Assembly: GCF_002797675.1 (NCBI RefSeq)
Contig: NZ_PGEX01000001.1
Coordinates: 2,976,001 to 3,040,000 of the forward strand
DNA from: Hallerella succinigenes
Lineage (GTDB): Bacteria; Fibrobacterota; Fibrobacteria; Fibrobacterales; Fibrobacteraceae
DNA length: 64,000 bases
Reading direction: 5' to 3'
The position numbers were made by a program, and so were the translations under genes. Below the pieces are notes generated by a model. It was not told the DNA's origin and searched no databases. It was given only the letters and a program-made list of their open reading frames with translations. Positions 6,385 to 61,063 of this stretch are shown here, in pieces (the stretch's first letter is position 1; the number at the start of each line of letters is the position of its first letter).

Positions 6385-6409
6385 TGATGTGAACCCCGAA
6401 AGTTGGACA
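6385..6409 (+). repeat. Left terminal inverted repeat of the IS150-like element
   Basis: Begins TGATGTGAACCCC and ends AAAGTTGGACA. The outer part is shared with the right end as TGAACCC and the inner part as AAAGTTGGACA. Confidence 0.85.
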
Positions 6410-6426
6410 CAACTTTCGGAGTTTTC

Positions 6427-6954
6427 ATGTACCAGAAACACACAAAAGAAGAATGGGCCAAGGCCTATGAACTTCACAAGGATGGTTACGACTCTCCGTC
6501 AATCTCAAGGTTGACAGGTCTGGAACTGTCCGAAATTAAGCGCCATATCCGGCTTTACCGACAGACCGGCTGTTGGCAGACTGAAAGGAAAACGAATGTT
6601 CGGTCAACTCCTGCCTTGAGGAGGACTGTCATCGACGCGGTCGTCAAGAAATCTCTATCTTATGCGGAAGTTATCGCCAAGTACAGCATAAGTTTTACCA
6701 GCCTGAGTTCTTGGCTGCGGAAATACCGTCATGGCGGATACGAAGAACTGCTAGCTACCAAGCCGAGAGGGAGACCACCCAAGATGAACAAGGCCAAGCC
6801 GAAATGGACAACGGGAATGAGCGAGATTGAACGCCTCAGGGAAGAAAATGAGTATCTAAAAGCGGAGAACGCCTACCTAAAAAAATTAAAGGCCCTAGAC
6901 CAGGAAGAAAGTGCCGAGATGTTCGGTATAGGGCCCAAGTCGTCCGCGAACTGA
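6427..6954 (+). CDS. IS150-type OrfA (DNA-binding subunit)
   Basis: 175 residues from the ATG at 6427, starting MYQKHTKEEWAKAYEL. Two helix-turn-helix segments (about residues 8-45 and 55-105) are followed by a basic stretch (KPRGRPPKMNKAKPK) and a leucine-zipper-like coiled coil (IERLREENEYLKAENAYLKK). In IS150-group elements this protein recognises the terminal repeats and limits transposition. The coiled coil runs into the A7 frameshift site, so the fused OrfAB transposase keeps the HTH and zipper. The residues after the slip site (GIGPKSSAN at the end) are the out-of-frame read of orfB. An earlier in-frame start at 6403 would fall in the inverted repeat and is not preferred. Confidence 0.9.
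   Translation: MYQKHTKEEWAKAYELHKDGYDSPSISRLTGLELSEIKRHIRLYRQTGCWQTERKTNVRSTPALRRTVIDAVVKKSLSYAEVIAKYSISFTSLSSWLRKYRHGGYEELLATKPRGRPPKMNKAKPKWTTGMSEIERLREENEYLKAENAYLKKLKALDQEESAEMFGIGPKSSAN
6879..6885 (+). other. Programmed -1 frameshift site A_AAA_AAA
   Basis: Seven adenines in the phase cta-aaa-aaa of orfA. A -1 slip gives att-aaa-ggc, which stays open to the end of orfB. This is the canonical position for OrfAB synthesis in IS3-family elements. Confidence 0.8.
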
Positions 6955-7775
6955 GCGCCGAGTACGCCCTGAGACATCTCCTGAAGGCTAGCGGGCTGTC
7001 CCGCTCCACGTACTACTACAACCTCAAGGATGGCCCCGACCGCTACGCCGTCGTGCGCAAGCGAATCAAGGCCATACACGCCCAGAACAAGGGTCGCTAT
7101 GGCTACCGCCGCATCGTGGCCCAGCTCCGGAACGAGGGCTATGCCATAAACCACAAGACGGTCTATCGGCTCATGAAGGAAGATGGCCTGAAGAACGTGC
7201 GCAGGCGCTGCAAGTACCGCTCGTACAAGGGCGAGGTCGGCAAGACCGCCCCGAACAGGCTCAAGCGGAACTTCAACACAAAGGCCCCCAACAGGAAATG
7301 GACTACCGACGTGACTCAGATAAACATCGGCATGGACAAGTGCTACCTGTCGCCAATACTCGACATGTATAACGGCGAGATAGTCAGCTACGCAATCTCG
7401 GACCATCCGGACCTGAAGATGGTAATGGACATGCTGGACCGGGCATATGCGAAGAAGCGTACCTGGAAGCGACTGGTTCTGCACTCGGATCAGGGGTGGC
7501 ACTACCAGCATGCGATTTACCAGAAATCGCTGAAAGATCATAAAATCATCCAGAGCATGAGCCGTAAGGGCAACTGCCTGGACAATGCCATGATGGAGAA
7601 CTTCTTTGGAATAATGAAGTCAGAGCTTCTCTACCCGAACACGTTCAGAAACATGGACCACTTCAAACAGGAGCTGAGGAAGTATATCGAATACTACAAC
7701 AACGACCGGATAAAGCTGCGCCTAAACGGAATGAGTCCGGTACAATACCGGACTCATAACGCTGTTTTATCCTAA
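6885..7775 (+). CDS. IS150-type OrfB, DDE transposase catalytic part
   Basis: Made as the C-terminal part of OrfAB; the frame is open from the slip site and has no good start of its own before 7053. The product of about 296 residues starts with the IS3 OrfB zone (RAQVVRELSAEYALRHLLKA, GLSRSTYYY), then the HTH_21-like segment RYGYRRIVAQL, then an rve/RNase H-fold integrase core. Catalytic residues visible are D in KWTTDVTQI, D in LHSDQGWHY and E in DNAMMENFFGIMKSE. The C-terminal YYNNDRIKLRLNGMSPVQYR is the usual end of the family. No truncation or internal stop is seen. Confidence 0.92.
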   Translation: MKGPRPGRKCRDVRYRAQVVRELSAEYALRHLLKASGLSRSTYYYNLKDGPDRYAVVRKRIKAIHAQNKGRYGYRRIVAQLRNEGYAINHKTVYRLMKEDGLKNVRRRCKYRSYKGEVGKTAPNRLKRNFNTKAPNRKWTTDVTQINIGMDKCYLSPILDMYNGEIVSYAISDHPDLKMVMDMLDRAYAKKRTWKRLVLHSDQGWHYQHAIYQKSLKDHKIIQSMSRKGNCLDNAMMENFFGIMKSELLYPNTFRNMDHFKQELRKYIEYYNNDRIKLRLNGMSPVQYRTHNAVLS

Positions 7776-7783
7776 CTTTAAAC

Positions 7784-7808
7784 TGTCCAACTTTTTGGGT
7801 TCAGTTCA
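7784..7808 (-). repeat. Right terminal inverted repeat of the IS150-like element
   Basis: Read on the minus strand it begins TGAACTGAACCCA and ends AAAGTTGGACA, matching the left end at 21 of 25 positions. Confidence 0.85.
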
Positions 7809-8551: not shown

Positions 8552-11500
8552 TTAGTGGACAACTATATTTCTTGTCTGATTGCCAATACGAATCAGATAG
8601 TTCCCTGCTCTGGGAACAGCGACATTGAAATTATCGACATTCACATGGCCCTGATTCAATACGCGGCCCTGCATATCAAGAACCATATAGGCGGATCCAA
8701 TTCTTGCAGCGCTAATCTGAACGTTGCGTCCCACAATTTCTACGGAGAAGTGCGGAACACCAGCAATCTCGATAATTGCATCGCCCTTTTCGGAGCTGGA
8801 GCTTTCATGCTTTGCGCTAGAACTGGAATTGTCGCTCTTTTCGCTAGAACTTGATGATTTCGGAGCACTAGAGGAACTGCTGCTGGAGTTCTGTACGCTT
8901 GAAGAGCTAAGCTTTTCGTATTGAGCGGTTACATCAGTGTTCTTCACGATTTCATCAAACGATTTATCCCAGCCGGTAAACTTGTAGCCGTCTCGTTCAG
9001 GTTCTGCAGGAGCGGTAGCGGCAGCACCGAACTTTACATTCTGAGACTTGAGTGTGGAACCGTCATAATCCAGGAAGGTTACCTTATAAGCGTTCAGTAC
9101 GCTATTGTAAGAAGCTTTATAGGTGGCATCGCCTATTACCTTGACAATTCCCGGAGTCCAGCCAGCAAATTCATAGCTGTACTGGGCTGTAGAAGCCTTG
9201 GTCGGATCCGCCGGTGCAACAGGAGTCTTTCCATAGGCGACTGTACTCTTAGAAATTTCAGTACCGTCTTCATCGACGAAGGTGACTGTATAGCTCTTTG
9301 CCACTGCGTTATAGGTCGCGGAGTAAGTTGCCTTGCCCTTGACTGTTGTAATTTCCGGAGTCCAGCCTGCAAATTCGTAGATGTATTGGGCTGTAGAAGC
9401 CTTGGTCGGATCCGCCGGTGCAACAGGAGTCTTTCCATAGGCGACTGTACTCTTAGAAATTTCAGAGCCGTCTTCATCTACAAATGCAATTTCGTAGGTC
9501 CTTACCTTAGAGGTATAGGTTGCCGTATAAGTTGTATTGCTACTGACAGCAGTCACAGCCGGAGACCAGCCTGCAAATTCGTAACTGTACTGGGCCGTAG
9601 ATGCCTTGGACGGATCAGCAGGCGCCGAAGGAGTTTTGCCATAGGCGACTGTACTCTTGGAAATTTCAACACCGTCTTCATCGACGAAGGTGATGGTGTA
9701 ATTTCTCAAGGTTGAAGTAAATGTAGCCTTGTACGTTGCATCGTCTGTAACCTTCACGAGTTCAGGAGTCCAACCAGCGAAAGTGTAGTTGTACTGGGCT
9801 GTTGCAGCCTTTGTCGGTTCAGTTGCAGGTGCTGTAGGCATTTTGCCATAGGCCACACTGGAACTAGAAAGAGCCTTGCCGTTTTCGTCTGCGAATGTAA
9901 CGGTGTAATTTCTAACAACAGCATTATAAGTTGCTGTATAAACAGCATTGCCCTTGACTGTTGTAATTTCCGGAGTCCAGCCTGCAAACTCGTAGGTGTA
10001 TTGGGCGGTAGAAGCCTTGGTCGGATCTTTCGGAGCTGTGGGCATGGAACCATACTCAACAGAACCAGATTCTATTACAGAACCGTCTTCATCCACGAAG
10101 GTAATGGTGTAAGAAACGGTACTATAGCGGGCTTCAATGGAAATGTCTGCTGAAATTGTAATGCTTTCGCCCGGTTGACCTAAGTAGTTTCCCTTATTAT
10201 CGTACCAGCCGACAAAAGTATAGCCAGGCTTTTCAGCAGCTTCGGGCAAAGTATAGGAAGCACCTTCGTAAACATCTTCAGAAATTTCAACCTTACCATC
10301 TACATAGACAATAAGCTGGTGCTTCGGTGCGGCAGTAAACAAAGCATTCACCGTCAGGGCAGACTTCACAGAACTAAAGCTCTTGTCCCAGCCGTTGAAC
10401 ACATAGCCTTCTCGGGTCGGCGAGGCAGGAGCTGTAGCAGCCTTGCCGTATTCCACATACTGGGTTTTCAAAATTTCGGAACCATTCTTAAAAACGACTT
10501 CGTAAGTAACAGGCGTTGCATCAAATTCCGCAATGTATGTGGCATCGCCAACCACGCTGGCAATAGTTTTATCGAAGCCCTTGAATGTATAGTTAAATGC
10601 TACCGTAGATTCGCGTTCCGGATTTTCGCCCTTATAAGCAGGCATAGTTCCGTAGGCAAGCAGTTCTTCCTGCAGAACTGAATTATCGTAGTTCAGGAAC
10701 TGGACTGTGTACTTATTGATGGTGGCATCGTAAGTTGCCGTGTAAACGACTTCCTCTGTGACAGGAATCAGTGTTGCATCCCAACCGGCAAAGGTGTAGG
10801 TGTACTGGGCTGTAGCCGCAAGCGTAGGCGCATCGCCTGCGTACACAGGCACATTGCCGTATTGAACTGCAGAACTTTGTAGAACAGTGCCATCCACATT
10901 CTTGAAGGTAACTGTATAACTCAAGTCCAGGAGTTCCCCATACAAAGCCTTGACTGTGGTATTTTCTGTAAATACCGTCTTTGAATCGACTCGGGTAAGA
11001 TTTTCATCGAACCAGCCCTTGAAATAGTAGCCTTCTTCTGCGGCGGGAGCTTCGGGAATGGATTCCAACAAGCCATCTGCACCTGTAACGAGAGCCGCGA
11101 TTTCATTGTCTTCGGGATATTCGAAAGACACCACGTATTTCTGTTCTGCACTAGAAGCATACAAGGCAGAGACAGTCATATCAGCAGAAACTTTCTGCTT
11201 GCCAGTAAACACGTCCCCGTTTTCCTTGACCCAAGAAACAAACTTGTAACCCGAAGCAGGTTCAGGATCATCGGGCATAGATACAATTCCCTTGTTGTTG
11301 GTGTACTTACGGGTAGAAGCGCCATCATCGTCAAAGGTAACACGCATGGTCGGAAGATTGTTTGCATCGGCAAAAATCGGATAGCCATTTGCACGGCTCC
11401 AGATTTTTGAATTTTCCTGGGAACTGGCCATAGTATTCAGCTGCCAAGCGAACTGGTCGCGCTGCATATTGGCAGTAGAAAGGCCCCCCACATTAACCGT

Positions 11501-13207
11501 ATTTGCTGAAGACGAATCGACGCCTACTGCGGCAGAAAGGTCGGCTACCTTGGTATCGAAATATGCATTCTTTGTGCTTGCACCACTGGCGATTAAGCCA
11601 AACAAAGCACCCCTACGGGCTACATTACCATTACCACCTGTAGCTGTGCCCACAATATTTTCAGCGGCGCTGTAGACATTCTGTACTATACCCGAAGTAT
11701 AGCCGACAATACCACCTACATAGTATTTATTTGCGTAATATTTTACAGCAGAGGTCGCAACAGCTTCCACATCAGCAAGGTTGTGGGAATCTGTAATTTG
11801 GGAGGCACTATAACCAGCAATACCTCCGGCATAGGCAATTCTAAACAAAGTTGAGTTTGTATTCGTTGATGTTCCTGTATACTTTGTTGAAGAAAAAACC
11901 TTGCCCAAATTAACACAAGTGGAAACTAAGCCCTTTGAATTTATAAAAAAACCTACAATGCCACCGGAATAAGAATCATCATAAGAAGAAGAAGTAGTAG
12001 TTGCCGTCACGGAGCCGCTATTGCTACAGTTGCTAATAGTGGCGGCTGCATACACATAACCGGCTATGCCGCCGGAATAAGAATAAGAAGAAGAACCTGA
12101 AGCCGTTACGGCGCCGCTATTGGTGCAGTTGCTGATAGTAGCTGCGGCATTCACATCACCGGCTATACCACCGGAAGAAGAAGAACCTGACACGGCACCG
12201 CTATTGGTGCAGTTGCTGATAGTAGCTGCGGCATTCACATCACCGGCTATGCCGCCGGAAGAAGAACCTGACACAGCGCCGCTATTGGTGCAGTTGCTGA
12301 TAGTAGCTGCGGCATACACATAACCAGCTATGCCGCCGGAAGAAGAACCTGACACAGCGCCGCTATTGCTGCAGTTGCCGATGGTGGCGGCAGCATTCAC
12401 ATAACCGGCTACGCCTCCAGAATATTGACCAAAAACATCAGCCTTATTTTTAGAATTTTCAATAAACTTGCCTCCAGCCTCATAACCGACAACCCCACCA
12501 ACATAACTGACGTAGTTCGAGCCGACAGAGTGCTTTACCGAGCCAGACACCGTGGCTCCCTTGACACTTCCGGTATTGTATCCGGCAATTCCACCAACAT
12601 AACCATACGCATAATATGTAGAAGAACTGTAATATCCATTCAAATAAGTCAACACAGTTCCATCATAAGAAACATTTTCTATGGTTCCTTTATTTTTGCC
12701 AACTAGCCCGCCAATGTTACCATAACGTTTTTTTGATTTTGTAGAATCAACATGGGCGTACACATAAGCATTATCCACGCTTAAATTCTTAACCACTCCA
12801 TTTTCACCCACGACACCAAATAGGCCCCGGCTAATGGAGTCCGCCTTAGCTGCCAGCGTATCATTCACATACAGGCCACTGATCTTATGGCCATTTCCAT
12901 CAAAAATACCGTCAAAGGCACGGGTCGAAGTATCGCCTATGGCCTTCCAGCGGGTGGTTCCGCTTTTATCGGTAACCTCCGTGTCCCACAGCACAATGTC
13001 GTTAGCCAGCTGGGCATTTATGGTGGACTTGCCCGAATTCACCTGCACCGCAAACCAGGCCAGTTCCTCGGGCGTGGTAATCTGGTAAAACACCTTGCCA
13101 TCAATCTTCTTGGTGTTTTCGGGTTCACTGGTGCCCCCAAGCCAATTGGCAAAGGAGCTGGTAGCCACAAAAAGCAGCATCGCTAGAATTTTCGTTAATT
13201 TTGTCAT
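8552..13207 (-). CDS. GLUG and InlB-type repeat adhesin with T9SS-like tail
   Basis: 1551 residues, starting MTKLTKILAMLLFVATSSFA, a Sec signal peptide; the SD AAAGGGG lies just upstream. Residues 30-600 contain GLUG-like modules (GGIAGYVNAAATISNC, NSGAVSGSSS), the right-handed beta-helix type of bacterial adhesins. From about 620 to 1425 come roughly twelve InlB/Listeria-Bacteroides repeats of about 70 residues (YTVTFVDEDG, STVAYGKTP, YSYEFAGWTP). A serine-run linker (about 1427-1475) precedes a C-terminal domain ending RAGNYLIRIGNQTRNIVVH, close to the Por/T9SS sorting-domain pattern. The DNA repeats are strong: 81-bp units at 12100-12420 and about 205-bp units at 9130-9660. It is probably secreted and surface-held. 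The gene starts 10 bp after the 95-residue ORF, suggesting co-transcription. Confidence 0.9.
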   Translation of the reverse strand: MTKLTKILAMLLFVATSSFANWLGGTSEPENTKKIDGKVFYQITTPEELAWFAVQVNSGKSTINAQLANDIVLWDTEVTDKSGTTRWKAIGDTSTRAFDGIFDGNGHKISGLYVNDTLAAKADSISRGLFGVVGENGVVKNLSVDNAYVYAHVDSTKSKKRYGNIGGLVGKNKGTIENVSYDGTVLTYLNGYYSSSTYYAYGYVGGIAGYNTGSVKGATVSGSVKHSVGSNYVSYVGGVVGYEAGGKFIENSKNKADVFGQYSGGVAGYVNAAATIGNCSNSGAVSGSSSGGIAGYVYAAATISNCTNSGAVSGSSSGGIAGDVNAAATISNCTNSGAVSGSSSSGGIAGDVNAAATISNCTNSGAVTASGSSSYSYSGGIAGYVYAAATISNCSNSGSVTATTTSSSYDDSYSGGIVGFFINSKGLVSTCVNLGKVFSSTKYTGTSTNTNSTLFRIAYAGGIAGYSASQITDSHNLADVEAVATSAVKYYANKYYVGGIVGYTSGIVQNVYSAAENIVGTATGGNGNVARRGALFGLIASGASTKNAYFDTKVADLSAAVGVDSSSANTVNVGGLSTANMQRDQFAWQLNTMASSQENSKIWSRANGYPIFADANNLPTMRVTFDDDGASTRKYTNNKGIVSMPDDPEPASGYKFVSWVKENGDVFTGKQKVSADMTVSALYASSAEQKYVVSFEYPEDNEIAALVTGADGLLESIPEAPAAEEGYYFKGWFDENLTRVDSKTVFTENTTVKALYGELLDLSYTVTFKNVDGTVLQSSAVQYGNVPVYAGDAPTLAATAQYTYTFAGWDATLIPVTEEVVYTATYDATINKYTVQFLNYDNSVLQEELLAYGTMPAYKGENPERESTVAFNYTFKGFDKTIASVVGDATYIAEFDATPVTYEVVFKNGSEILKTQYVEYGKAATAPASPTREGYVFNGWDKSFSSVKSALTVNALFTAAPKHQLIVYVDGKVEISEDVYEGASYTLPEAAEKPGYTFVGWYDNKGNYLGQPGESITISADISIEARYSTVSYTITFVDEDGSVIESGSVEYGSMPTAPKDPTKASTAQYTYEFAGWTPEITTVKGNAVYTATYNAVVRNYTVTFADENGKALSSSSVAYGKMPTAPATEPTKAATAQYNYTFAGWTPELVKVTDDATYKATFTSTLRNYTITFVDEDGVEISKSTVAYGKTPSAPADPSKASTAQYSYEFAGWSPAVTAVSSNTTYTATYTSKVRTYEIAFVDEDGSEISKSTVAYGKTPVAPADPTKASTAQYIYEFAGWTPEITTVKGKATYSATYNAVAKSYTVTFVDEDGTEISKSTVAYGKTPVAPADPTKASTAQYSYEFAGWTPGIVKVIGDATYKASYNSVLNAYKVTFLDYDGSTLKSQNVKFGAAATAPAEPERDGYKFTGWDKSFDEIVKNTDVTAQYEKLSSSSVQNSSSSSSSAPKSSSSSEKSDNSSSSAKHESSSSEKGDAIIEIAGVPHFSVEIVGRNVQISAARIGSAYMVLDMQGRVLNQGHVNVDNFNVAVPRAGNYLIRIGNQTRNIVVH
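9130..9660 (-). repeat. Near-identical InlB-module repeats
   Basis: Units of about 205 bp share long identical tracts (for example around TCCATAGGCGACTGTACTC), encoding YGKTPVAPADPTKASTAQY. Recent duplication or gene conversion within the adhesin gene is inferred. Confidence 0.7.
12100..12420 (-). repeat. 81-bp tandem repeats in the GLUG region
   Basis: Four to five consecutive units of about 81 bp, encoding ISNCTNSGAVSGSSSGGIAG followed by DVNAAAT or YVNAAAT. The units differ by a few bases, so copy number may vary between strains. Confidence 0.8.
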
Positions 13208-18501: not shown

Positions 18502-18717
18502 ATGTCTGAAGCCATGCTCGCAGAATTTACCAAACGAGCAGCGTCCCTCTCCAAAGAGGAGACGATTTTCGTCATTTCCATCCTTCTGGAAAAATTAAAA
18601 GTGCCTGCCGAAACTAAGAAAAGCAACTCCTTAGACAGTCTTTTCAGCATGGCGGACCGGCTCCACTTAAACTCCAACGGAAAGTCCTGGAGTCGCGAGG
18701 ACCTTTATGACCGCTAG
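18502..18717 (+). CDS. Putative antitoxin of a VapBC-like pair
   Basis: 71 residues, start ATG with GGAGG 7 bp upstream. The sequence begins MSEAMLAEFTKRAASLSKEE and ends SWSREDLYDR. The helical N-terminal half and the tail with a conserved tryptophan and an acidic-basic end resemble small antitoxins placed before PIN toxins; I do not see a clear MazE/AbrB fold. The ORF overlaps the toxin gene by 11 bp, which supports a shared operon and coupled translation. Function is assigned mainly by position. Confidence 0.75.
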   Translation: MSEAMLAEFTKRAASLSKEETIFVISILLEKLKVPAETKKSNSLDSLFSMADRLHLNSNGKSWSREDLYDR

Positions 18718-19123
18718 TTGTTTCCTAGACACGAACATCCTCGTATATTCCGTTGACGAAAAAGACAAGATTAAACAAAAGGTTGCGAGAGATTTAATCG
18801 TCTCTTTAGTTCGAAACGAGGATGCCATTATTTCAACGCAGACCCTACAAGAATTTTACAACGCAGCCACCAAGAAATTGATTGCATCAAAGAAGGATGC
18901 AGGATTATTTGTCAAGCAGTTTTCCGACATCATCCCGGTTCACAGCAACACCGTAAATGACGTCTTGACGGCAATTGACATCAGCGATGCATCCCAACTA
19001 TCGTTTTGGGATTCTCTCATCTTGGCATCCGCAAAATCCTGTGGATGTTCAACCGTTTATTCTGAAGACCTCAATGATGGGCAAACCGTCAACGGCGTAA
19101 AAATTGTAAATCCGTTTAAATAG
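18707..19123 (+). CDS. PIN-domain toxin, VapC-like
   Basis: 138 residues covering one complete PIN domain. Acidic metal ligands are visible: D8 in CFLDTNILVYS, E in STQTLQEFYN (about 46), D in LSFWDSLILASA (about 104), and the final ED in VYSEDLNDG. PIN proteins of this class are Mg-dependent ribonucleases; VapC toxins cut initiator tRNA or other RNAs. The ATG at 18707 lies inside the end of the antitoxin gene. The locus ends in its own terminator, so it forms a compact two-gene unit. Confidence 0.9.
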   Translation: MTASCFLDTNILVYSVDEKDKIKQKVARDLIVSLVRNEDAIISTQTLQEFYNAATKKLIASKKDAGLFVKQFSDIIPVHSNTVNDVLTAIDISDASQLSFWDSLILASAKSCGCSTVYSEDLNDGQTVNGVKIVNPFK

Positions 19124-19226: not shown

Positions 19227-19391
19227 CTATAACAGGATATTATTCTGTGACGAAGGCGCTCCCATTTTTGATTTCAAAGCATCTTCCAAAAGAGTCTTAT
19301 TATATTTATGAGCCGCATATATTGAGCCACAAATAGAAAGGACCTCTAATCCCAAAATAGCTTCCGGAGCATAGATTATAAAGAGGTGCTC
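19227..19391 (-). other. Possible remnant of a small gene
   Basis: Between the second and third terminators the minus strand is open for 54 codons without a good start codon. It reads, among other things, APEAILGLEVLSICGSIYAA and then HKYNKTLLEDALKSKMGAP, a protein-like sequence with one hydrophobic helix. It ends at TAG (19229-19227). No homolog is known to me. It could be the tail of a decayed gene or chance. Nothing else was found in 19182-19380 apart from TTGACA at 19210 with no well-spaced -10. Confidence 0.2.
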
Positions 19392-19407
19392 CTAGAGCAC
19401 CTCTTTT
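19381..19407 (+). terminator. Third copy of the valS-type terminator, no gene upstream
   Basis: AAGAGGTGCTC-cta-GAGCACCTCTT and T run. It is the third hairpin of this design within 1 kb. No plus-strand gene precedes it. Confidence 0.75.
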
Positions 19408-19424: not shown

Positions 19425-19715
19425 CTATTGACCTTTTCTATTAAAAATATTAACAGAGATTAAAAGACTCCAAACTTTTTTTATCCCCCCCCTAGCGATT
19501 GCTGTGTTCATTTCCGGGGCAAACGGAATGCCGTAAACCTGCGCATATTGGTGAACAGTCACGTTCTTGCCGAGGAAACGCCCGTAGAGCTTTTTACTCG
19601 ACTGGCCCAAAACCAAATCGGCGTTTGAAGCTTGCTCATTCCGCGTTTCAACGACAACCGCGGCGTTGAGGCTGCTCGCCAAAAGCGCACAAAAATTTAT
19701 TTCATCCATAACCAA
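19425..19715 (-). pseudogene. Last spacer ORF fused to a truncated seventh array gene
   Basis: The spacer ORF (VMDEINFCALLASSLNAAVV and onward) does not stop at the next gene start as in the other units. The start codon has been lost (ATG to ATA in a G-rich tract), and the reading frame runs into KKVWSLLISV, the signal-peptide start of the seventh gene, ending after 7 more residues. KKVWSLLISV is identical to the start of the gene at 20482. The seventh copy is therefore deleted after about 18 codons, marking the worn 3' end of the array. Confidence 0.7.
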
Positions 19716-20482
19716 TTCCCATGCACCCGGGCGACCGCAGGAACGTTCGGGATTTCCAAAAAGCCGCCGTCGAAATTTTTGCGCAGGAGCAACTTCCCGT
19801 TCAAATCGAAAACGGAAACTTCCATGCCGAGAGGGACTCCCGACAAACGAAATTTTCCCGCCGAAACCTTCTCCGCGCGGACGCCCTGCGAAACTTTCGA
19901 AATGCGGGAAATCGCTGTGGAAGAATCCACAAGCGAGCAGCAGCCGGGGCCGATTGTCCATTCGGCGCCGTTTTCTTCAAAAAAAGAAACACCGTCAATG
20001 TCTTCACACTTTCCCACAGCCTTCATCAATTCTATTTTTTCTTGTAAAAAATTCTCAAGAGAGTCCTGCTGCATTTTTATAATTCCAAAAGACTGCATTC
20101 TCAACAATTCTATTTTTAGAACTTCGCTAAATTGCAGTTTCCCAGAATTTCCCGAAACTTCGGATGGCGAAAGAAAAGGATCAATACAGATTTGGTATTC
20201 CCGGTACAGTCGAATGGTCAGCAACGAGTCGCTTCTTTCCATTTCCAGATAAACGGATTCGTCCGCGGGAGCGTTGTACGCTATCGAGTTGGTTGACGAT
20301 TCACACAATTTTCCCATTTTTTTGACCCAGAGCGATTCAATCGAGTCGCAAAAAGATTCCGTAATTTGATTTTCATCCATTTTTAACGAATGGAAAACCA
20401 AATCCAATGTCTCCGGACTGAAGTCTAAAGCATAAGAAAAATACGTTCCAACAGAGATTAAAAGACTCCAAACTTTTTTCAT
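19697..20482 (-). CDS. Secreted cysteine-containing array protein, unit 6
   Basis: 261 residues. Signal peptide MKKVWSLLISVGTYFSYA. The body has the array motifs LQFSEVLKIELLRMQSFGI, CEDID and GPGCCSLVDSSTAIS; this copy has the most diverged middle. The last 60 residues (RAEKVSAGKFRLSGVPLG, VSVFDLNGKLLLRKNFDGGF) are shared by all copies and resemble a Por/T9SS C-terminal sorting domain (V-D-x-x-G-K-x-L pattern), ending HGNWLWMK. It is therefore probably exported across both membranes and surface-attached or released. The ATG overlaps the upstream spacer-ORF stop (ATGA) with SD AGGAGGGG. No known enzymatic motif; function unknown. Confidence 0.85.
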   Translation of the reverse strand: MKKVWSLLISVGTYFSYALDFSPETLDLVFHSLKMDENQITESFCDSIESLWVKKMGKLCESSTNSIAYNAPADESVYLEMERSDSLLTIRLYREYQICIDPFLSPSEVSGNSGKLQFSEVLKIELLRMQSFGIIKMQQDSLENFLQEKIELMKAVGKCEDIDGVSFFEENGAEWTIGPGCCSLVDSSTAISRISKVSQGVRAEKVSAGKFRLSGVPLGMEVSVFDLNGKLLLRKNFDGGFLEIPNVPAVARVHGNWLWMK

Positions 20483-20715
20483 CTTCCCCTCCTAGCGATT
20501 GCGGTGTTCATTTCCGGGGCAAACGGAATGCCGTAAACTTGTGTATATTGGTGAACAGTCACGTTCTTGCCGAGGAAACGCCCGTAGAGCTTTTTACTCG
20601 ACTGGCCCAAAACCAAATCGGCGTTTGAAGCTTGCTCATTCCGCGTTTCAACGACAACCGCGGCGTTGAGGCTGCTCGCCAAAAGCGCACAAAAATTTAT
20701 TTCATCCATAACCAA
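20479..20715 (-). CDS. Conserved spacer ORF, array unit 5 to 6
   Basis: 78 codons overlapping the end of the unit-5 gene by 19 bp and the start of unit 6 by 4 bp (ATGA). The second half (DLVLGQSSKKLYGRFLGKN, VTVHQYTQVYGIPF) is the same as the C-terminus of the gene at 25464. Start is TTG or ATG. It may be a translated small protein or a relic of that gene tail carrying the SD for the next gene. Confidence 0.4.
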   Translation of the reverse strand: MVMDEINFCALLASSLNAAVVVETRNEQASNADLVLGQSSKKLYGRFLGKNVTVHQYTQVYGIPFAPEMNTAIARRGR

Positions 20716-21449
20716 TTCCCATGCACCCGGGCGATCGCAGGAACGTTCGGGATTTCCAAAAAGCCGCCGTCGAAATTTTTGCGCAGAAGCAACTTCCCGT
20801 TCAAATCGAAAACGGAAACTTCCATGCCGAGAGGGACTCCCGACAAACGAAATTTTCCCGCCGAAACCTTCTCCGCGCGAATATCCCGCGAAATTTTCAA
20901 AATGTTGGAAATCACCGAGGGAGACTCCACAAGCGAGCAGCAGCTATAATTTGGTAGCATTGTGTAAATTCCGTAAGCCTTATCGATATCGTCACAATAG
21001 CCTTTATTTCCCACTTTCAACGAATCTATCACGCTTAGAACAAACGCTTCGGCGGAATCTTTTTCCATGTCGACCACACCCAATTCCTGAAGCCGCAAAA
21101 ACTCCGCTAGAAAAACTTCACTGAATTGCAGCGTCCCGCTTTGGCCTACCGTAACATGCCCAAAGGCGTCTCCTTCACAAACTTGCGTATTACGATTTAT
21201 CCAAATAGAATTTTCATAAAACATAAATCCGAACGACACCGTGGAATCCAACGGCGATCTATAATAAATGGAAAAGTCGTTGTCGCAGTTTGCCCCGTCG
21301 TCAAAAGTAGGCAGCTGCATTATCGTTTCGCAGGCTTTCGGAATATTTTCGTAATTGACGAATTCAAAATTCGAAAAATACTTCGTTTCCGGGGGAGTTG
21401 CTAAAGCCAAATCGATCAATAGAATTCCCAAAAACAATATCTTTTTCAT
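20697..21449 (-). CDS. Secreted cysteine-containing array protein, unit 5
   Basis: 250 residues, the shortest copy. Signal peptide MKKILFLGILLIDLALA. The variable part differs strongly from its neighbours but keeps LDSTV, CEGD, LQFSEVFLAEFLRLQELGV, CDDID and SCCSLVESPSVIS. It lacks the WLFGPG or WTIGPG stretch before the CC pair that most copies have, reading MLPNYSCCS instead. The tail is the shared T9SS-like domain (FRLSGVPLGMEVSVFDLNGK). The junction variant SNILKISRDI is of the same type as units 1 and 3. SD and ATGA coupling are as in the other units. Confidence 0.85.
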   Translation of the reverse strand: MKKILFLGILLIDLALATPPETKYFSNFEFVNYENIPKACETIMQLPTFDDGANCDNDFSIYYRSPLDSTVSFGFMFYENSIWINRNTQVCEGDAFGHVTVGQSGTLQFSEVFLAEFLRLQELGVVDMEKDSAEAFVLSVIDSLKVGNKGYCDDIDKAYGIYTMLPNYSCCSLVESPSVISNILKISRDIRAEKVSAGKFRLSGVPLGMEVSVFDLNGKLLLRKNFDGGFLEIPNVPAIARVHGNWLWMK

Positions 21450-21682
21450 CTTCCCCTCCTAGCGATTGCTGTGTTCATTTCCGGGGCAAACGGAATGCCG
21501 TAAACTTGTGTATATTGGTGAACAGTCACGTTCTCGCCGAGGAAACGCCCGTAGAGCTTTTTACTCGACTGGCCCAAAACCAAATCGACATTGGAAGCTT
21601 GCTCATTCCGCGTTTCAACGACAACCGCGGCGTTGAGGCTGCTCGCCAAAAGCGCACAAAAATTTATTTCATCCAAAACCAA
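21446..21682 (-). CDS. Conserved spacer ORF, array unit 4 to 5
   Basis: 78 codons in the same place as the other spacer ORFs. The internal ATG of the other copies is TTG here (VLDEINFCALL), and it reads NVDLVLGQSS like the gene at 25464. The stop overlaps the unit-5 start. Confidence 0.35.
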   Translation of the reverse strand: MVLDEINFCALLASSLNAAVVVETRNEQASNVDLVLGQSSKKLYGRFLGENVTVHQYTQVYGIPFAPEMNTAIARRGR

Positions 21683-22455
21683 TTCCCATACACCCGGGCG
21701 ACCGCAGGAACGTTCGGGATTTCCAAAAAGCCGCCGTCGAAATTTTTGCGCAGGAGCAACTTCCCGTTCAAATCGAAAACGGAAACTTCCATGCCGAGAG
21801 GGACTCCCGACAAACGAAATTTTCCCGCCGAAACCTTCTCCGCGCGGATGCCCTGCGAAACTTTCGAAATGCGGGAAATCGCTGTGGAAGAATCTACAAG
21901 CGAGCAGCAGCCGGGGCCGAACAGCCACTGGGCTCCGCTATTTTCTCCATAAGAACCCCAATCCAAATCCGGACATTTTTTGTTTTTTGCTTTTATCTGC
22001 GCAATGGCGGACACCAGAAGCAACTCAAGCGAATCCCGCTGTATATTAATTATCCCGCATTCTTGAAATCGTAAAAGTTCAAACATCATCACTTCGCTGA
22101 ACTGGTGCGTACCCGGCGTTCCCACCGTACTGTCTTCCGGATACGGGCCAACACAATTTTGCGAAATTCGCGTCATCTCCAAAATTTGTTCTGTTTCGTC
22201 ACCTGTAAAATAAATACGAACGGTGGAATCCAATAGGGAATTGAAACCAATGCCATTCCTGTCCGCACAATCGTAAATGAATTTCTCTTTTTGTGACGAA
22301 TCCACAAAATATTGGGCATAGATTTCGCAAGCCGATTCCATCGCGGAGGAATCGATTTTTAGCGAAGCAAAACCCAAATCGTTAATAAGAGGTTGCCCCA
22401 CAGAAAACGAGAAAAAAGTTAGTACGCAAAAGAACTGAGACGCTATTTTTTTCAT
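21664..22455 (-). CDS. Secreted cysteine-containing array protein, unit 4
   Basis: 263 residues from the ATG at 22455; a GTG one codon earlier is possible. Signal peptide MKKIASQFFCVLTFFSFSVG. The first 100 residues are unlike units 1 and 3, but from NCVGPYPEDSTVGTPGTHQF to the CC pair it is nearly identical to them, so the gene is a mosaic. The tail is the shared T9SS-like domain, with junction variant SRISKVSQGI, the type also seen in units 2 and 6. Its terminus reads NWFWMK. The spacer upstream ends in TGATG, one base of overlap, instead of ATGA. Confidence 0.85.
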   Translation of the reverse strand: MKKIASQFFCVLTFFSFSVGQPLINDLGFASLKIDSSAMESACEIYAQYFVDSSQKEKFIYDCADRNGIGFNSLLDSTVRIYFTGDETEQILEMTRISQNCVGPYPEDSTVGTPGTHQFSEVMMFELLRFQECGIINIQRDSLELLLVSAIAQIKAKNKKCPDLDWGSYGENSGAQWLFGPGCCSLVDSSTAISRISKVSQGIRAEKVSAGKFRLSGVPLGMEVSVFDLNGKLLLRKNFDGGFLEIPNVPAVARVYGNWFWMK

Positions 22456-22688
22456 CACTTCCTCCTAGCTATTGCTGTGTTCATTTCCGGGGCAAACGGA
22501 ATGCTGTAAACCTGCGCATATTGGTGAACCGTTACATTCTTGCCGAGGAAACGCCCGTAGAGCTTTTTACTCGACTGGCCCAAAACCAAATCGGCGTTTG
22601 AAGCTTGCTCATTCCGCGTTTCAACGACAACCGCGGCGTTGAGGCTGCTCGCCAAAAGCGCACAAAAATTTATTTCATCCATAACCAA
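22455..22688 (-). CDS. Conserved spacer ORF, array unit 3 to 4
   Basis: 77 codons, one shorter than its sisters (ends IARRK) and ending in TGATG at the unit-4 start. Contains YAQVYSIPFAPEMN, a slightly diverged version of the common tail. Confidence 0.38.
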   Translation of the reverse strand: MVMDEINFCALLASSLNAAVVVETRNEQASNADLVLGQSSKKLYGRFLGKNVTVHQYAQVYSIPFAPEMNTAIARRK

Positions 22689-23464
22689 TTCCCATGTACC
22701 CGGACAACCGCAGGAACGTTCAGGATTTCCAAAAAGCCGCCGTCGAAATTTTTGCGCAGGAGCAACTTCCCGTTCAAATCGAAAACGGAAACTTCCATAC
22801 CGAGAGGGACTCCCGACAAACGAAATTTTCCCGCCGAGACTTTTTCCGCGCGAATATCCCGCGAAATTTTCAAAATGTTGGAAATCACCGAGGGAGACTC
22901 CACAAGCGAGCAGCAGCCGGGGCCGAACAGCCACTGGGCTCCGCTATTTTCTCCATAAGAACCCCAATCCAAATCCGGACATTTTTTGTTTTTTGCTTTT
23001 ATCTGCGCAATGGCGGACACCAGAAGCAACTCAAGCGAATCCCGCTGTATATTAATTATCCCGCATTCTTGAAATCGTAAAAATTCAAACATCATCACTT
23101 CGCTGAACTGGTGCGTTCCCGGCGTTCCCACCGTACTGTCTTCCGGATACGGGCCGACGCAATTTTGAAAAGCTCTAGCCAAGTCCAAGTATTGTCTTTT
23201 TTCATCGCCGCGAAAATAAATAAATACAGTAGAGTCTAACAAAGAGTGAAAGCCTATACCTTCTGAATCCGAAGAGCAGTCTTCATTAAATTTCTTGGAT
23301 GAGGAATCGGACAAGAAATATGAGGAATACATTTCACAGGCTTTGGGCATTTGTACAGAATTTATTTTCAACGAAGTAAAATACAAATCGCCTACAAGAG
23401 GCTGCCCTAAAGAAAAAGACGAAAAAGTCAAAACGCAAAAGAACAGGGACGCTATTTTTTTCAT
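22670..23464 (-). CDS. Secreted cysteine-containing array protein, unit 3
   Basis: 264 residues, almost identical to unit 1 over the whole length, apart from a few residues (for example ILNVPAVVRVHG at the tail). Signal peptide MKKIASLFFCVLTFSSFSLG. Cysteines occur at KACEMY, NEDCSS, QNCVGP, KKCPDLD and GPGCCS, a pattern conserved through the array and suggesting disulphide bonds outside the cytoplasm. The shared T9SS-like domain ends the protein. Near-identity with unit 1, two units away, indicates a recent duplication of a two-unit block or gene conversion. Confidence 0.86.
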   Translation of the reverse strand: MKKIASLFFCVLTFSSFSLGQPLVGDLYFTSLKINSVQMPKACEMYSSYFLSDSSSKKFNEDCSSDSEGIGFHSLLDSTVFIYFRGDEKRQYLDLARAFQNCVGPYPEDSTVGTPGTHQFSEVMMFEFLRFQECGIINIQRDSLELLLVSAIAQIKAKNKKCPDLDWGSYGENSGAQWLFGPGCCSLVESPSVISNILKISRDIRAEKVSAGKFRLSGVPLGMEVSVFDLNGKLLLRKNFDGGFLEILNVPAVVRVHGNWLWMK

Positions 23465-23697
23465 CTTCCCCTCCTAGCGATTGCTGTGTTCATTTCCGGG
23501 ACAAACGGAATGCCGTAAACTTGTGTATATTGGTGAACCGTTACATTTTTTCCGAGAAAACGCCCGTAGAGGGATTTGCTCGATTGTCCGAGAATCAAAT
23601 CGGCGTTTGAAGTTTGCTCATTCCGCGTTTCAACGATAACCGCGGCGTTGAGGCTGCTCGCCAAAAGCGCACAAAAATTTATTTCATCCATAACCAA
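23461..23697 (-). CDS. Conserved spacer ORF, array unit 2 to 3
   Basis: 78 codons, the most diverged spacer. Compared with the unit 1-2 spacer about two thirds of the codon changes are synonymous (for example CTC/TTA, GGA/GGC, CAA/CAG, AGC/AGT), and most others are conservative (L/F, I/V, A/V). This pattern indicates selection on the protein. Confidence 0.45.
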   Translation of the reverse strand: MVMDEINFCALLASSLNAAVIVETRNEQTSNADLILGQSSKSLYGRFLGKNVTVHQYTQVYGIPFVPEMNTAIARRGR

Positions 23698-24458
23698 TTC
23701 CCATGCACCCGGGCGATCGCAGGAACGTTCGGGATTTCCAAAAAGCCGCCGTCGAAATTTTTGCGCAGAAGCAACTTCCCGTTCAAATCGAAAACGGAAA
23801 CTTCCATGCCGAGAGGGACTCCCGACAAACGGAACTTTCCCGCCGAGACTTTTTCCGCACGAACGCCCTGCGAAACTTTCGAAATGCGGGAAATCGCCGA
23901 GGGAGACTCCACAAGCGAGCAGCAGCCGGGGCCGATTACACCATCCGAAAACTCCAAATCAACACAATAATCATTTTTCTCAATCATTTTCGTCACTGTT
24001 TCGTTTAATTGGAGTTCAAAACTATCGCGATTGTTTTTAATAACGCCAAGTTCCTGGAAACGTAAAAGCTCAAAAATTAAAACTTCGCTGAATTGATGCG
24101 TCCCGGGAATCCCCGTTGTTTCCAAGTCAGCAAGAGAAGCGCCCACGCATGCTTGCTGATTTCTTGTCATAAAAAAAGAAGGTTTCTCTGTATTGATTGC
24201 TGAAATATACAAAGCAACAGTTGAATCTAATATCGACAAAAATCCAACTTCCCCACCTTCATGAAAACAGTTCTCTAAAAAGTAGTTTTTTTGAGAACTG
24301 TCGACAAAAGCGTCAGCGTATATTTCGCAAATATTTTCTGTACTTTTTGAAGTATCCACTTTTAAAAAATCAAAATCAAAATCTCCGAAATGAGGCGAAA
24401 ATGCACAGCAAAAACAAGGGACGCAAAATAGTAAAGAATTCAACACTCGCATTTTCAT
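23679..24458 (-). CDS. Secreted cysteine-containing array protein, unit 2
   Basis: 259 residues. Start MKMRVLNSLLFCVPCFCCAF, a signal peptide unusually rich in cysteine. The variable part is distinct (DFDFLKVDTSKSTENICEIY, QQACVGASLADLETTG) but follows the same plan: LDSTV, QACVG, THQFSEVLIFELLRFQELGV, CVDLE, GPGCCSLVESPSAIS. Its junction combines VESPSAIS (as in unit 1) with RISKVSQGV (as in unit 6), a clear recombinant. The shared T9SS-like tail follows. Function unknown. Confidence 0.85.
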   Translation of the reverse strand: MKMRVLNSLLFCVPCFCCAFSPHFGDFDFDFLKVDTSKSTENICEIYADAFVDSSQKNYFLENCFHEGGEVGFLSILDSTVALYISAINTEKPSFFMTRNQQACVGASLADLETTGIPGTHQFSEVLIFELLRFQELGVIKNNRDSFELQLNETVTKMIEKNDYCVDLEFSDGVIGPGCCSLVESPSAISRISKVSQGVRAEKVSAGKFRLSGVPLGMEVSVFDLNGKLLLRKNFDGGFLEIPNVPAIARVHGNWLWMK

Positions 24459-24691
24459 CTTCCCCTCCTAGCTATTGCTGTGTTCATTTCCGGGGCAAAC
24501 GGAATGCCGTAAACTTGTGTATATTGGTGAACAGTTACGTTCTTGCCGAAGAAACGCCCGTAGAGCTTTTTACTCGACTGGCCTAAAACTAAATCGACAT
24601 TTGAAGCTTGCTCATTCCGCGTTTCAACGACAACCGCGGCGTTGAGGCTGCTAGCCAAAAGCGCACAAAAATTTATTTCATCCATAACCAA
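24455..24691 (-). CDS. Conserved spacer ORF, array unit 1 to 2
   Basis: 78 codons. Same layout as the other spacer ORFs; reads NVDLVLGQSSKKLYGRFFGK with L to F at the second glycine loop. Stop overlaps the unit-2 start by 4 bp. Confidence 0.4.
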   Translation of the reverse strand: MVMDEINFCALLASSLNAAVVVETRNEQASNVDLVLGQSSKKLYGRFFGKNVTVHQYTQVYGIPFAPEMNTAIARRGR

Positions 24692-25467
24692 TTCCCATGT
24701 ACCCGGACAACCGCAGGAACGTTCGGGATTTCCAAAAAGCCGCCGTCGAAATTTTTGCGCAGGAGCAACTTCCCGTTCAAATCGAAAACGGAAACATCCA
24801 TGCCGAGAGGGACTCCCGACAAACGAAATTTTCCCGCCGAAACCTTCTCCGCGCGAATATCCCGCGAAATTTTCAAAATGTTGGAAATCGCCGAGGGAGA
24901 CTCCACAAGCGAGCAACAGCCGGGGCCGAACAGCCACTGGGCTCCGCTATTTTCTCCATAAGAGCCCCAATCCAAATCCGGACATTTTTTGTTTTTTGCT
25001 TTTATCTGCGCAATGGCGGACACCAGAAGCAACTCAAGCGAATCCCGCTGTATATTAATTATCCCGCATTCTTGAAATCGTAAAAGTTCAAACATCATCA
25101 CTTCGCTGAACTGGTGCGTTCCCGGCGTTCCCACCGTACTGTCTTCCGGATACGGGCCGACGCAATTTTGAAAAGCTCTAGCCAAGTCCAAGTATTGTCT
25201 TTTTTCATCGCCGCGAAAATAAATAAATACAGTAGAGTCTAACAAAGAGTGAAAGCCTATACCTTCTGAATCCGAAGAGCAGTCTTCATTAAATTTCTTG
25301 GATGAGGAATCGGACAAGAAATATGAGGAATACATTTCACAGGCTTTGGGCATTTGTACAGAATCTATTTTCAACGAAGTAAAATACAAATCGCCTACAA
25401 GAGGCTGCCCTAAAGAAAAAGACGAACAAGTCAAAACGCAAAAGAACAGGGACGCTATTTTTTTCAT
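24673..25467 (-). CDS. Secreted cysteine-containing array protein, unit 1
   Basis: 264 residues, first array gene in the direction of transcription. Signal peptide MKKIASLFFCVLTCSSFSLG. The body is nearly the same as unit 3 and shares its middle with unit 4. Conserved features: LDSTVFIYFRGDEK, NCVGPYPEDSTVG, THQFSEVMMFELLRFQECG, CPDLDWG and GPGCCSLVESPSAIS, then the T9SS-like C-terminal domain with VSVFDLNGKLLLRK. The ATG overlaps the stop of the preceding gene (ATGA), with AGGAGGGGGAG as SD. The family is not recognised; the signal peptide, cysteines and tail point to an extracellular protein. Confidence 0.86.
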   Translation of the reverse strand: MKKIASLFFCVLTCSSFSLGQPLVGDLYFTSLKIDSVQMPKACEMYSSYFLSDSSSKKFNEDCSSDSEGIGFHSLLDSTVFIYFRGDEKRQYLDLARAFQNCVGPYPEDSTVGTPGTHQFSEVMMFELLRFQECGIINIQRDSLELLLVSAIAQIKAKNKKCPDLDWGSYGENSGAQWLFGPGCCSLVESPSAISNILKISRDIRAEKVSAGKFRLSGVPLGMDVSVFDLNGKLLLRKNFDGGFLEIPNVPAVVRVHGNWLWMK

Positions 25468-26060
25468 CTCCCCCTCCTAGCGATTGCTGTGTTCATTTCC
25501 GGGACAAACGGAATGCCGTAAACTTGTGTATATTGGTGAACCGTTACATTTTTTCCGAGAAAACGCCCGTAGAGCTTTTTACTCGACTGGCCCAAAACCA
25601 AATCGACGTTCGGGGCAAAAATCGTATCCGCCCACATCCCTTCTACCGTCATCGTTTCGCTTCCGTGCTGAATGAGCTTGAAGCCTTTGGCGACTTTTTC
25701 CAAGTCGTCGTTCAACGTTCTTGCCCGCCAAATAACGCCGCCGTGTAAATGCAAAATTGTCTGCATTCCCGGATTGATGAATAGCACTTTGCTGCCGGAT
25801 TCCAACTGAATATTTCCAATGGAAATTTCTCCGGGTTCCACAAAAAGCGTTCCGCCGGGACTCACTTTTAATGTCTGAAAACGGTCGCCGTCTTTCAAGG
25901 TGTAACTTTCATTGTTGGCGATTTCTTTGGTGACAAGCCCTGCACTTTGCATTGCCGGAAGTTCGGCAACACGGTGCGGCCACAGTGTTTTTAATTGAAG
26001 GATAAAGGCTTTTGGATTTGTAAGTTTTCTAATAGTGGGTTCATGAATGACCATATTCAT
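25464..26060 (-). CDS. Protein whose C-terminus is repeated in the array spacers
   Basis: 198 residues. A beta-rich part with GDRFQTLKVSPGGTLFVEPG, GSKVLFINPG and ILHLHGGVIWRART resembles a repetitive beta-fold or right-handed helix. The last 46 residues (DLVLGQSSKKLYGRFLGKN and so on) occur in every array spacer. It starts MNMVIHEPTIRKL and has no signal peptide, odd for a gene heading a run of secreted proteins; an N-terminal export part may have been removed by the transposase wreck upstream. A TATATTTA box lies 12 bp before the ATG. Function unknown. Confidence 0.65.
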   Translation of the reverse strand: MNMVIHEPTIRKLTNPKAFILQLKTLWPHRVAELPAMQSAGLVTKEIANNESYTLKDGDRFQTLKVSPGGTLFVEPGEISIGNIQLESGSKVLFINPGMQTILHLHGGVIWRARTLNDDLEKVAKGFKLIQHGSETMTVEGMWADTIFAPNVDLVLGQSSKKLYGRFLGKNVTVHQYTQVYGIPFVPEMNTAIARRGR

Positions 26061-26112: not shown

Positions 26113-26680
26113 GGTCTAGGCAGCCTGTTTTGACAGCCTATATTCAACCGGAGTCATGTATCCCAGCGAACTATGGAGCCGTTTCCGGTTGTAGAACAGT
26201 TCGATGTACCTGAAAACGGCCTCCCGCACCTCTTCGATGTCCTTGAAGTCACACCTGTAGGCCAGCTCCTTCTTGAAGCTTGCGAAGAAGCTTTCCGTGC
26301 AAGCGTTGTCATAGGGGCAGCCCGGGGCGCTCATCGAGGGCGTTATCCCGTTCTCCGAGAGCATCGTGCGGTAGCCCATGCTACTGTACTGCACGCCACG
26401 GTCGATAACTCTACTACGGCAAGGTACACCCACCCAAGCGCAGCCTTGACGTAGGTGATGTCGACGGCCGAGACTGCGTTCAGGCTGTCGGGATCGAAGT
26501 TCCGCTGCACCAGGTTCTCGCTGTACATGGCGTCGCATTTGCCCTTGCGCCTCAATCATGCCCATAGGCAAATAAGTTTGCCTGGGTCACGATACTCGGC
26601 TTGTTGACTTTTCGCCTTTCAGGACCGGTTTGATGACTTGTTCCCTTGTCTCGGAGTTGTAGCTATCCTCTTATTAAACT
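26113..26680 (-). pseudogene. Wreck of an IS3-family element
   Basis: Three pieces in different frames. Near 26590-26660 an orfA start (NSETREQVIKPVLKGEKS). Near 26420-26500 the first catalytic aspartate region of orfB (SAVDITYVKAALGWVYLAVV). From 26119 to 26420 the remaining end (DRGVQYSSMGYRTML, DNACTESFFASFKKELAYRC, RLHSSLGYMTPVEYRLSKQ). Roughly 50 codons are lost between the first two aspartates, and frames are broken, so it cannot make a working transposase. It is a different subgroup from the intact IS150-like element. No other gene is seen in 26061-26789. Confidence 0.8.
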
Positions 26681-26766
26681 CCTGCATGGTCCAATTTTTC
26701 CAAACAAAAAAATACTCCAACTTGGAATGAACTCCCCTAAAACTTGCCTTTATGGGGTGAAAAAGG

Positions 26767-26774
26767 TATATTTA
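26767..26774 (+). promoter_or_regulatory. TATATTTA box before the PIN toxin-antitoxin pair
   Basis: TAnnTTT-type box 15 bp upstream of the antitoxin ATG, with TGGAGGA in between. Confidence 0.35.
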
Positions 26775-26789
26775 GAGTGGAGGACCACC

Positions 26790-27017
26790 ATGGCAGCAGC
26801 ACAAACGCTAAATCCGACTCAGATACATCTTCTTGAGATGTTTTCCTTTTGCAAAGATGCAGAAGCCTTACAGGATTTGAAGGCTGTTCTAGCTGATTAC
26901 TATGCCAAGAAGGTTCAAGAAGAAGCAGACGCTCTGTGGGATGATGGCGTGCTAGGTGCAGACGCTATTGAGCAGATTGGCAAAGAACACTGGAGAACCC
27001 CTTATTCCAAAGTATAA
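26790..27017 (+). CDS. Putative antitoxin of a PIN-type pair
   Basis: 75 residues from the ATG at 26790 (SD TGGAGGA 5 bp upstream); an earlier in-frame start at 26646 would run through transposase debris. Sequence starts MAAAQTLNPTQIHLLEMFSF and ends IGKEHWRTPYSKV. The helical middle (EALQDLKAVLADYYAKKVQEE) and the short basic-aromatic tail are typical for the small proteins encoded before COG1569-type PIN toxins; the tail is likely the part that fits into the toxin active site. The assignment rests on these features and position. Confidence 0.78.
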   Translation: MAAAQTLNPTQIHLLEMFSFCKDAEALQDLKAVLADYYAKKVQEEADALWDDGVLGADAIEQIGKEHWRTPYSKV

Positions 27018-27019
27018 CC

Positions 27020-27436
27020 TTGCGCCGCATTTGCCTTGATACAAACTGCCTGTTGATGAGCCTCCCGTCTAAAAGTCCATATCATCAAATATGGACCGAA
27101 TTCTTGAACGGGGACTTGGAAATTTGCGTATCGCCAGAGATACTTCTTGAGTACGAAGAAATTGTTTCCCAGAAGATTTCAAGTCGCATGGCAACCATTT
27201 TAATGGAAGCCTTAACCAATCGCCCGAACCTTGTGAGAACAACTCCTACTTGGCGTTTCAACTTGATTACGCAAGATCCAGACGACAACAAGTTCGTTGA
27301 TTGTGCTATCTGCGGAATGGCAGAATACATCGTTTCTAACGATCGACATTTCGACATTCTGAAGAGCATCGACTTTCCGCTGGTCTCAGTTCGATCCATT
27401 CAAGAATTTTCCAAAGAACTCGCGGACGAGATGTAA
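27020..27436 (+). CDS. PIN-domain toxin, COG1569-like
   Basis: 138 residues with a TTG start 2 bp after the antitoxin stop. One PIN domain: D7 in ICLDTNCLLMSL, E in SPEILLEYEEIV, D in QDPDDNKFVDCAI and the SNDRHF segment. This matches the subgroup of PIN toxins paired with short antitoxins, expected to be Mg-dependent RNases. It sits between two dead transposases, so it is probably part of a transferred segment. The whole domain is present and no defect is visible. Confidence 0.88.
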   Translation: MRRICLDTNCLLMSLPSKSPYHQIWTEFLNGDLEICVSPEILLEYEEIVSQKISSRMATILMEALTNRPNLVRTTPTWRFNLITQDPDDNKFVDCAICGMAEYIVSNDRHFDILKSIDFPLVSVRSIQEFSKELADEM

Positions 27437-61033: not shown

Positions 61034-61063
61034 TTTATCTCCGTGGATGGTGAATGAAATAAA

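Follow-up and report, generated by a model that had tools for sequence, protein, structure and literature searches.

Tandem accordions of surface-protein genes are known from Staphylococcus aureus, in which csa1 and sdrCDE form such arrays and sdrCDE recombines through a shared domain (PMC7360770). Other described systems are the operons of C10 proteases and staphostatin-like inhibitors of Bacteroides (PMC2873492) and the maf islands of Neisseria (PMC4287609). For Fibrobacter succinogenes, export of surface enzymes by the T9SS has been proposed (PMC6851124). The array described here resembles each of these in part. It was found in Hallerella succinigenes (GCF_002797675.1, NZ_PGEX01000001.1, positions 2,976,001–3,040,000 of the forward strand). 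This entire analysed stretch of 64,000 nt is called the window.

A sequence-only reading had described six consecutive genes of 250–264 residues with the motifs LDSTV, C-x-D-(L/I)-(D/E), FSEV...ELLR, and a CC pair. These genes were confirmed on the minus strand, where their starts lie 967–1009 bp apart, and the motifs were present in the copies. The array comprises six complete genes running back to back from 25467 to 19697, with lengths of 264, 259, 264, 264, 250, and 261 aa in reading order, and a seventh unit that is truncated. The six genes are joined by spacer ORFs, each about 76 codons long, whose own start and stop overlap, respectively, the stop of the preceding small gene and the start of the next. 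The place of the first spacer is taken by the end of a longer ORF (25464–26060). Each of the six copies has its own signal peptide, Shine–Dalgarno site, and intact frame. The genome is a single 3.13-Mb contig rated complete, so assembly collapse of the repeat is unlikely. In reading order, the features are:

26116–26571, minus strand: IS3-family transposase remnant adjoining the truncated large gene (Pfam rve_3 1.3e-17, rve_2 4.5e-17)
25464–26060, minus strand: 3′ end of the large CBM3/peptidase gene (198-aa ORF), 5′ part lost, in the first-spacer position; 82% aa identity to residues 682–862 of an 863-aa F. intestinalis protein and 83.5% DNA identity over 557 bp
24673–25467, minus strand: small gene 1, 264 aa, with signal peptide, head, and T9SS-type tail
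24455–24685, minus strand: spacer ORF 2, a mini-copy of the large gene with an internal deletion
23679–24458, minus strand: small gene 2, 259 aa, of the F. intestinalis C93 head lineage (head tree)
23461–23691, minus strand: spacer ORF 3, the most divergent spacer, nearest to the F. intestinalis C77 allele
22670–23464, minus strand: small gene 3, 264 aa, a near duplicate of small gene 1
22455–22682, minus strand: spacer ORF 4
21664–22458, minus strand: small gene 4, 264 aa, with residues 22–103 of its own, a middle in common with genes 1 and 3, and a tail in common with gene 6
21446–21676, minus strand: spacer ORF 5, with a TTG start
20697–21449, minus strand: small gene 5, 250 aa, of the F. 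intestinalis C77 head lineage (head tree)
20479–20709, minus strand: spacer ORF 6
19697–20482, minus strand: small gene 6, 261 aa, with a head lineage in common with genomes G001 and G017 (head tree)
19450–19709, minus strand: spacer 7, then about 27 bp of a gene-6-like gene start (the truncated seventh unit)
19380–19406, minus strand: perfect 11-bp hairpin 3′ of the array, a possible terminator, read off the sequence and absent from the consensus-scan list

Two ORFs were reinterpreted. The one of 178 aa at 19425–19961 is not a family gene: it reads through the last spacer and some 27 bp of a gene start, with a frame upstream that is open by chance. The 198-aa ORF at 25464–26060 is what truncation has left of the end of a much larger gene. 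Beyond the truncated seventh unit, the sequence is unrelated and contains the 11-bp hairpin. A sigma-70 promoter scan gave matches at chance level, none of which stood out, and RNA folding around the ribosome sites weakly favored translational coupling. PIN-domain genes flank the array on both sides (18502–19123 and 26646–27436, plus strand), each preceded by a small gene in the manner of toxin–antitoxin pairs; no tRNA that might mark an island edge was found in the window. Elsewhere in the window, the minus strand at 8552–13207 encodes a 1551-aa protein with GLUG motifs and many Listeria–Bacteroides repeats, which is probably another surface protein, and 58532–61057 carries 833-codon open frames on both strands of the same stretch, one of them presumably a shadow frame.

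Relatives were searched with the longer ORF, and intact large genes of about 860–1100 codons were identified in Fibrobacter intestinalis ATCC 43854 and other Fibrobacteraceae. Every spacer ORF is the start of this large gene fused to its last ~50 codons, and the deletion junction is identical in all spacers of the window and in the Fibrobacter MAG UBA4373 (G003). Most simply, the spacers would derive from one internal deletion that was then amplified. The earlier description of conserved spacer ORFs stood in that they are near-identical (mutually 88–98.5%), and it was revised in that they are internally deleted copies of a surface-peptidase-like gene. Changes among the window spacers fell preferentially on synonymous sites (p = 1.3e-4 with every spacer included, 2.5e-4 with the divergent spacer 3 left out). 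The reading frame thus seems to have been kept, although import from intact large genes could be an alternative source of this bias.

Besides a signal peptide, the large protein has a CBM3-like domain, a segment resembling papain-like cysteine peptidases, calcium repeats of the TSP3 type, and an end domain. The CBM3-like domain had a best PDB match of 7e-7, and Pfam CBM_3 was matched in two relatives. The peptidase segment contains an invariant Cys and His and matched C39_2 in six of 11 segments, C10 in four, and C70 in three, at strengths from below cut-off up to 2.5e-5; a PDB profile search with this segment returned chance matches only. The predicted model of the large protein was unusable (pLDDT 32), and the putative peptidase assignment consequently rests on sequence. 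The C-terminal end showed a weak likeness to ice-binding or choice-of-anchor domains and is beta-helix-like. In both F. intestinalis and genome G002, one or two small genes, each with a T9SS-type tail, come directly after the intact large gene. Reduced forms were also observed: F. intestinalis C60 has two small genes with a 3′ end of the large gene lying between them, C69 holds a separate mini-gene with a different joint, and in a yak-caecum MAG the large gene is reduced to its 3′ end ahead of its small gene. The H. succinigenes genome contains no intact copy of the large gene, which makes a partner role for the small proteins impossible here unless they act on the peptidases of other cells.

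The model of the small protein (12 sequences, mean pLDDT 81) comprised an alpha/beta head at residues 22–190, a loose linker at 192–201, and a seven-strand tail. T9SS substrate C-terminal domains (8gl8, 5hfs, 8glk, and RgpB) were among the best PDB matches for the tail fold, although these matches were short (52–70 columns, probability 0.92–0.99 but E 0.04–0.4). Matches of the tail to T9SS sequence models were below threshold, with a best E of 0.1 to NF033708 for seven of 15 members and 0.016 to TIGR04183 for one. The genome encodes SprA (1210 bits, above cut-off) and a PorU-like sortase (390 bits, slightly below the cut-off of 420), and a type A sorting domain was matched at 33 places in it at E ≤ 0.01. 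The C-terminal part of a PorU-like C25 peptidase, a T9SS sortase candidate, lies at the right edge of the window (62564–64000, minus strand), about 36 kb from the array. The fold match, together with the SprA and sortase-like genes of this genome, supported the suggestion that the near-identical C-terminal domain is T9SS-like, and the tail is predicted to be a T9SS-type sorting domain with an Ig-like beta-sandwich fold. The head contains six conserved cysteines and has no clear relative in Pfam, NCBIfam, PADLOC, the PDB, or a viral fold library. Scans of the small proteins against Pfam, NCBIfam, and PADLOC gave no usable match, a PDB profile search with the family gave one chance match, and fold searches matched the tail only. 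No known inhibitor family was matched in Pfam or the PDB, and searches of the variable part for toxin or immunity domains yielded chance-level matches.

The histories of heads and tails were then compared. The C-terminal ~74 codons are 90–99% identical between the six copies. The sequence-only reading held that only the part in between varies; this applies to residues 22–103, which are mostly 37–61% identical (genes 1 and 3, near duplicates, are the exception), but the middle is itself mosaic, with residues 104–190 almost exactly common to genes 1, 3, and 4. Within the same genes, synonymous divergence is 0–0.22 for the tails and above 1 or saturated for most head pairs, a difference that would not be produced by differing protein constraint alone. 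Identity rises sharply near nucleotides 550–600 of the unit; genes 1 and 4 show another such rise near 330–350. The head tree joins gene 6 to G001 and G017 (83/86), gene 5 to F. intestinalis C77 (90/88), and gene 2 to F. intestinalis C93 (100/100); common ancestry of the eight array heads was rejected (AU p = 2e-46). The six tails, together with one tail from G003, form a single clade (98/92). Conflict between these trees indicates old heads on locus-specific, homogenised tails: the array heads are old lineages of different ancestry whose closest relatives are in other species. Together with a PHI-type recombination test (p = 0.003), it agrees with the proposed mosaic layout with identical flanks for recombination. 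Homologous recombination has presumably homogenised the tails and spacers, and such concerted evolution could occur without the exchange having any function.

Rapid diversification of the exposed part, as the sequence-only reading had proposed, was not supported. The heads in G003 are 98.8–99.6% identical to those of genes 1, 3, and 4, which represent two head types; this is far above the backbone DNA, which is 79–86% identical between G003 and H. succinigenes. The ratio dN/dS over residues 22–103 was below 1 wherever it could be estimated, and a few pairs exceeded 1 in segment 161–190, over 22 codons only. Diversifying selection on the heads was rejected on the ground of their near-identity between species. 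The copies are not uniform in number among relatives, with six units in H. succinigenes and two in G003 (one genome per species). Heads ~99% identical across species and a differing number of units imply that diversity lies in which heads are present, and the array looks like a means of collecting several different surface heads rather than quickly mutating one. The surroundings of the G003 array differ from those in the window, and an IS3 end adjoins it; the simplest reading of these sequences would be recent transfer between species with stable heads. The window also contains an IS3-family-like element (6403–7807, plus strand), whose end at 7711–7807 is 93% identical to the sequence cutting off the G003 array.

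Similar layouts were observed at other loci. In F. intestinalis C60, tail and spacer are 94% identical and the middle was not alignable by blastn, and in G002, the tail is 86% identical and the head not alignable. In G014, from another genus, three tandem secreted lipoprotein genes alternate with 3′-end remnants of a related large gene (L075 1–2801), with spacers 92–100% and middles 46–70% identical. The same slot holds unrelated heads at some other Fibrobacteraceae loci. On contig 1 of H. succinigenes itself, at ~1084000–1088500 (L076 8700–10950), the nuo operon is adjoined by a second tandem pair of small genes, which have T9SS tails and heads of another family; one of the two copies is frameshifted. 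A guess that these heads are CBM11-like was unsupported. In G002, nuo is accompanied at the corresponding place by the large peptidase-like gene and a pair of small genes, which suggests that the H. succinigenes nuo locus has lost its large gene too. In contig C77 of F. intestinalis, a stretch of 1775 N starts inside the small gene 3′ of the intact large gene (L060 3296–5070) and may hide further tandem copies that short reads did not resolve.

We favor, at a probability of roughly 0.55, the reading of the array as a tandem "head collection" whose members are exported by the T9SS. Its ancestor would have been an operon of two genes. The first would have encoded a large secreted protein with CBM3, a papain-like cysteine peptidase, TSP3 repeats, and a beta-helix-like end; the second, its start codon overlapping the stop codon of the first, would have encoded a small secreted protein in which a T9SS tail follows a cysteine-rich head. 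The 1-kb unit, a mini-remnant with a ribosome site followed by the small gene, would have arisen by tandem duplication together with an internal deletion of the large gene. Through the near-identical tails and spacers, units would then be multiplied, deleted, and re-paired by homologous recombination, which would keep tails and spacers alike, and heads of old, different ancestry would be retained. Since every copy is complete, several heads are probably translated in series from one message and displayed together on the surface, which presumes that the array is expressed.

As an alternative, the array might be an orphan inhibitor or immunity bank, left after its own peptidase was lost, whose small proteins guard against the papain-like surface peptidases of competitors. 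The operon with a C10/C39-like peptidase in relatives fits this idea, as do the retention of six heads in a genome without an intact large gene and the greater divergence of the heads compared with the peptidase (77% identity between the F. intestinalis C77 and C93 large proteins). In Bacteroides, genes for C10 peptidases lie on mobile elements and are transcribed together with those for small inhibitors (PMC2873492), and by this analogy an inhibitor or specificity role for the heads may be a fair lead. We nevertheless regard such a bank as unlikely, given that no known inhibitor or immunity family was matched, that peptidase activity is putative, and that unrelated heads occupy the same slot elsewhere, which also speaks against one single answer for the role of the heads. 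That the heads are partners of this family's surface peptidases, as specificity factors or inhibitors, is offered as a low-confidence guess.

Two further explanations were weighed. The array could be a recently transferred, decaying tandem duplication without a selected function, homogenised because recombination between repeats is inevitable. The transposase remnant and truncation here, the IS3 end beside the G003 array, the truncated seventh unit, the likely transfer between species, and the frameshifted copy at the second locus would all fit decay, but six intact frames, the synonymous excess in the spacer frames (p = 2.5e-4), and distinct old head lineages ~99% conserved between species leave it only a small chance. 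Silent-cassette antigenic variation, as in pilE/pilS or vls, in which the copies would be a donor store feeding one expression site, shares the near-identical flanks, divergent middle, and mosaic joints. It is quite improbable for an array in which every copy has a signal peptide, Shine–Dalgarno site, and complete frame, in a genome with no separate expression copy or further full copy elsewhere, and with heads that are ~99% conserved between species and not fast-changing.

Under the head-collection reading, T9SS tails may be the joints at which fibre-degrading gut bacteria exchange surface heads. If more than one head is shown at the same time, fibre attachment or competition could be tuned by whole-head shuffling, not mutation. 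The CBM3-bearing papain-like secreted family, apparently undescribed, would be tied to small, fast-reassorting partner genes. More tentatively, and with considerable doubt, the T9SS tail and the 3′ end of the large gene may serve Fibrobacteraceae as constant sites of recombination, through which unrelated small heads are gathered, exchanged, and displayed side by side, with mini-peptidase spacers kept as working parts; this would be an undescribed modular system for the exchange of surface proteins.

No description of the small-protein family, or of peptidase-gene remnants as spacers, was found in the searches, which covered open-licence papers. Compared with silent-cassette systems, the array differs in its complete copies. 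Like the maf islands (PMC4287609), it alternates truncated large-gene copies with small variable genes downstream, but the variable part of maf is the toxin ends of the truncated copies, whereas the truncated copies here are uniform and the small genes vary; unlike maf and polymorphic toxin loci, the array has no toxin or immunity match. The likeness to the Bacteroides C10 operons (PMC2873492) lies in the mobile-DNA link and in a secreted papain-like peptidase gene joined, in relatives, to a small secreted partner gene, but the Fibrobacteraceae partner is larger, cysteine-rich, T9SS-tailed, and of no inhibitor family, and the array lacks the peptidase. With Fibrobacter T9SS surface proteins (PMC6851124) it has in common a C-terminal domain of the kind proposed for export and outer-membrane attachment; those described are mainly plant-fibre enzymes, whereas the array heads match no enzyme family. 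As in the S. aureus accordions, tandem surface-protein genes contain long homologous stretches that permit expansion and contraction. Unlike in S. aureus, the repeat carries what remains of an upstream peptidase-like gene, copy number was compared here between species (six versus two), and whole heads of different old ancestry sit on a homogenised export tail.
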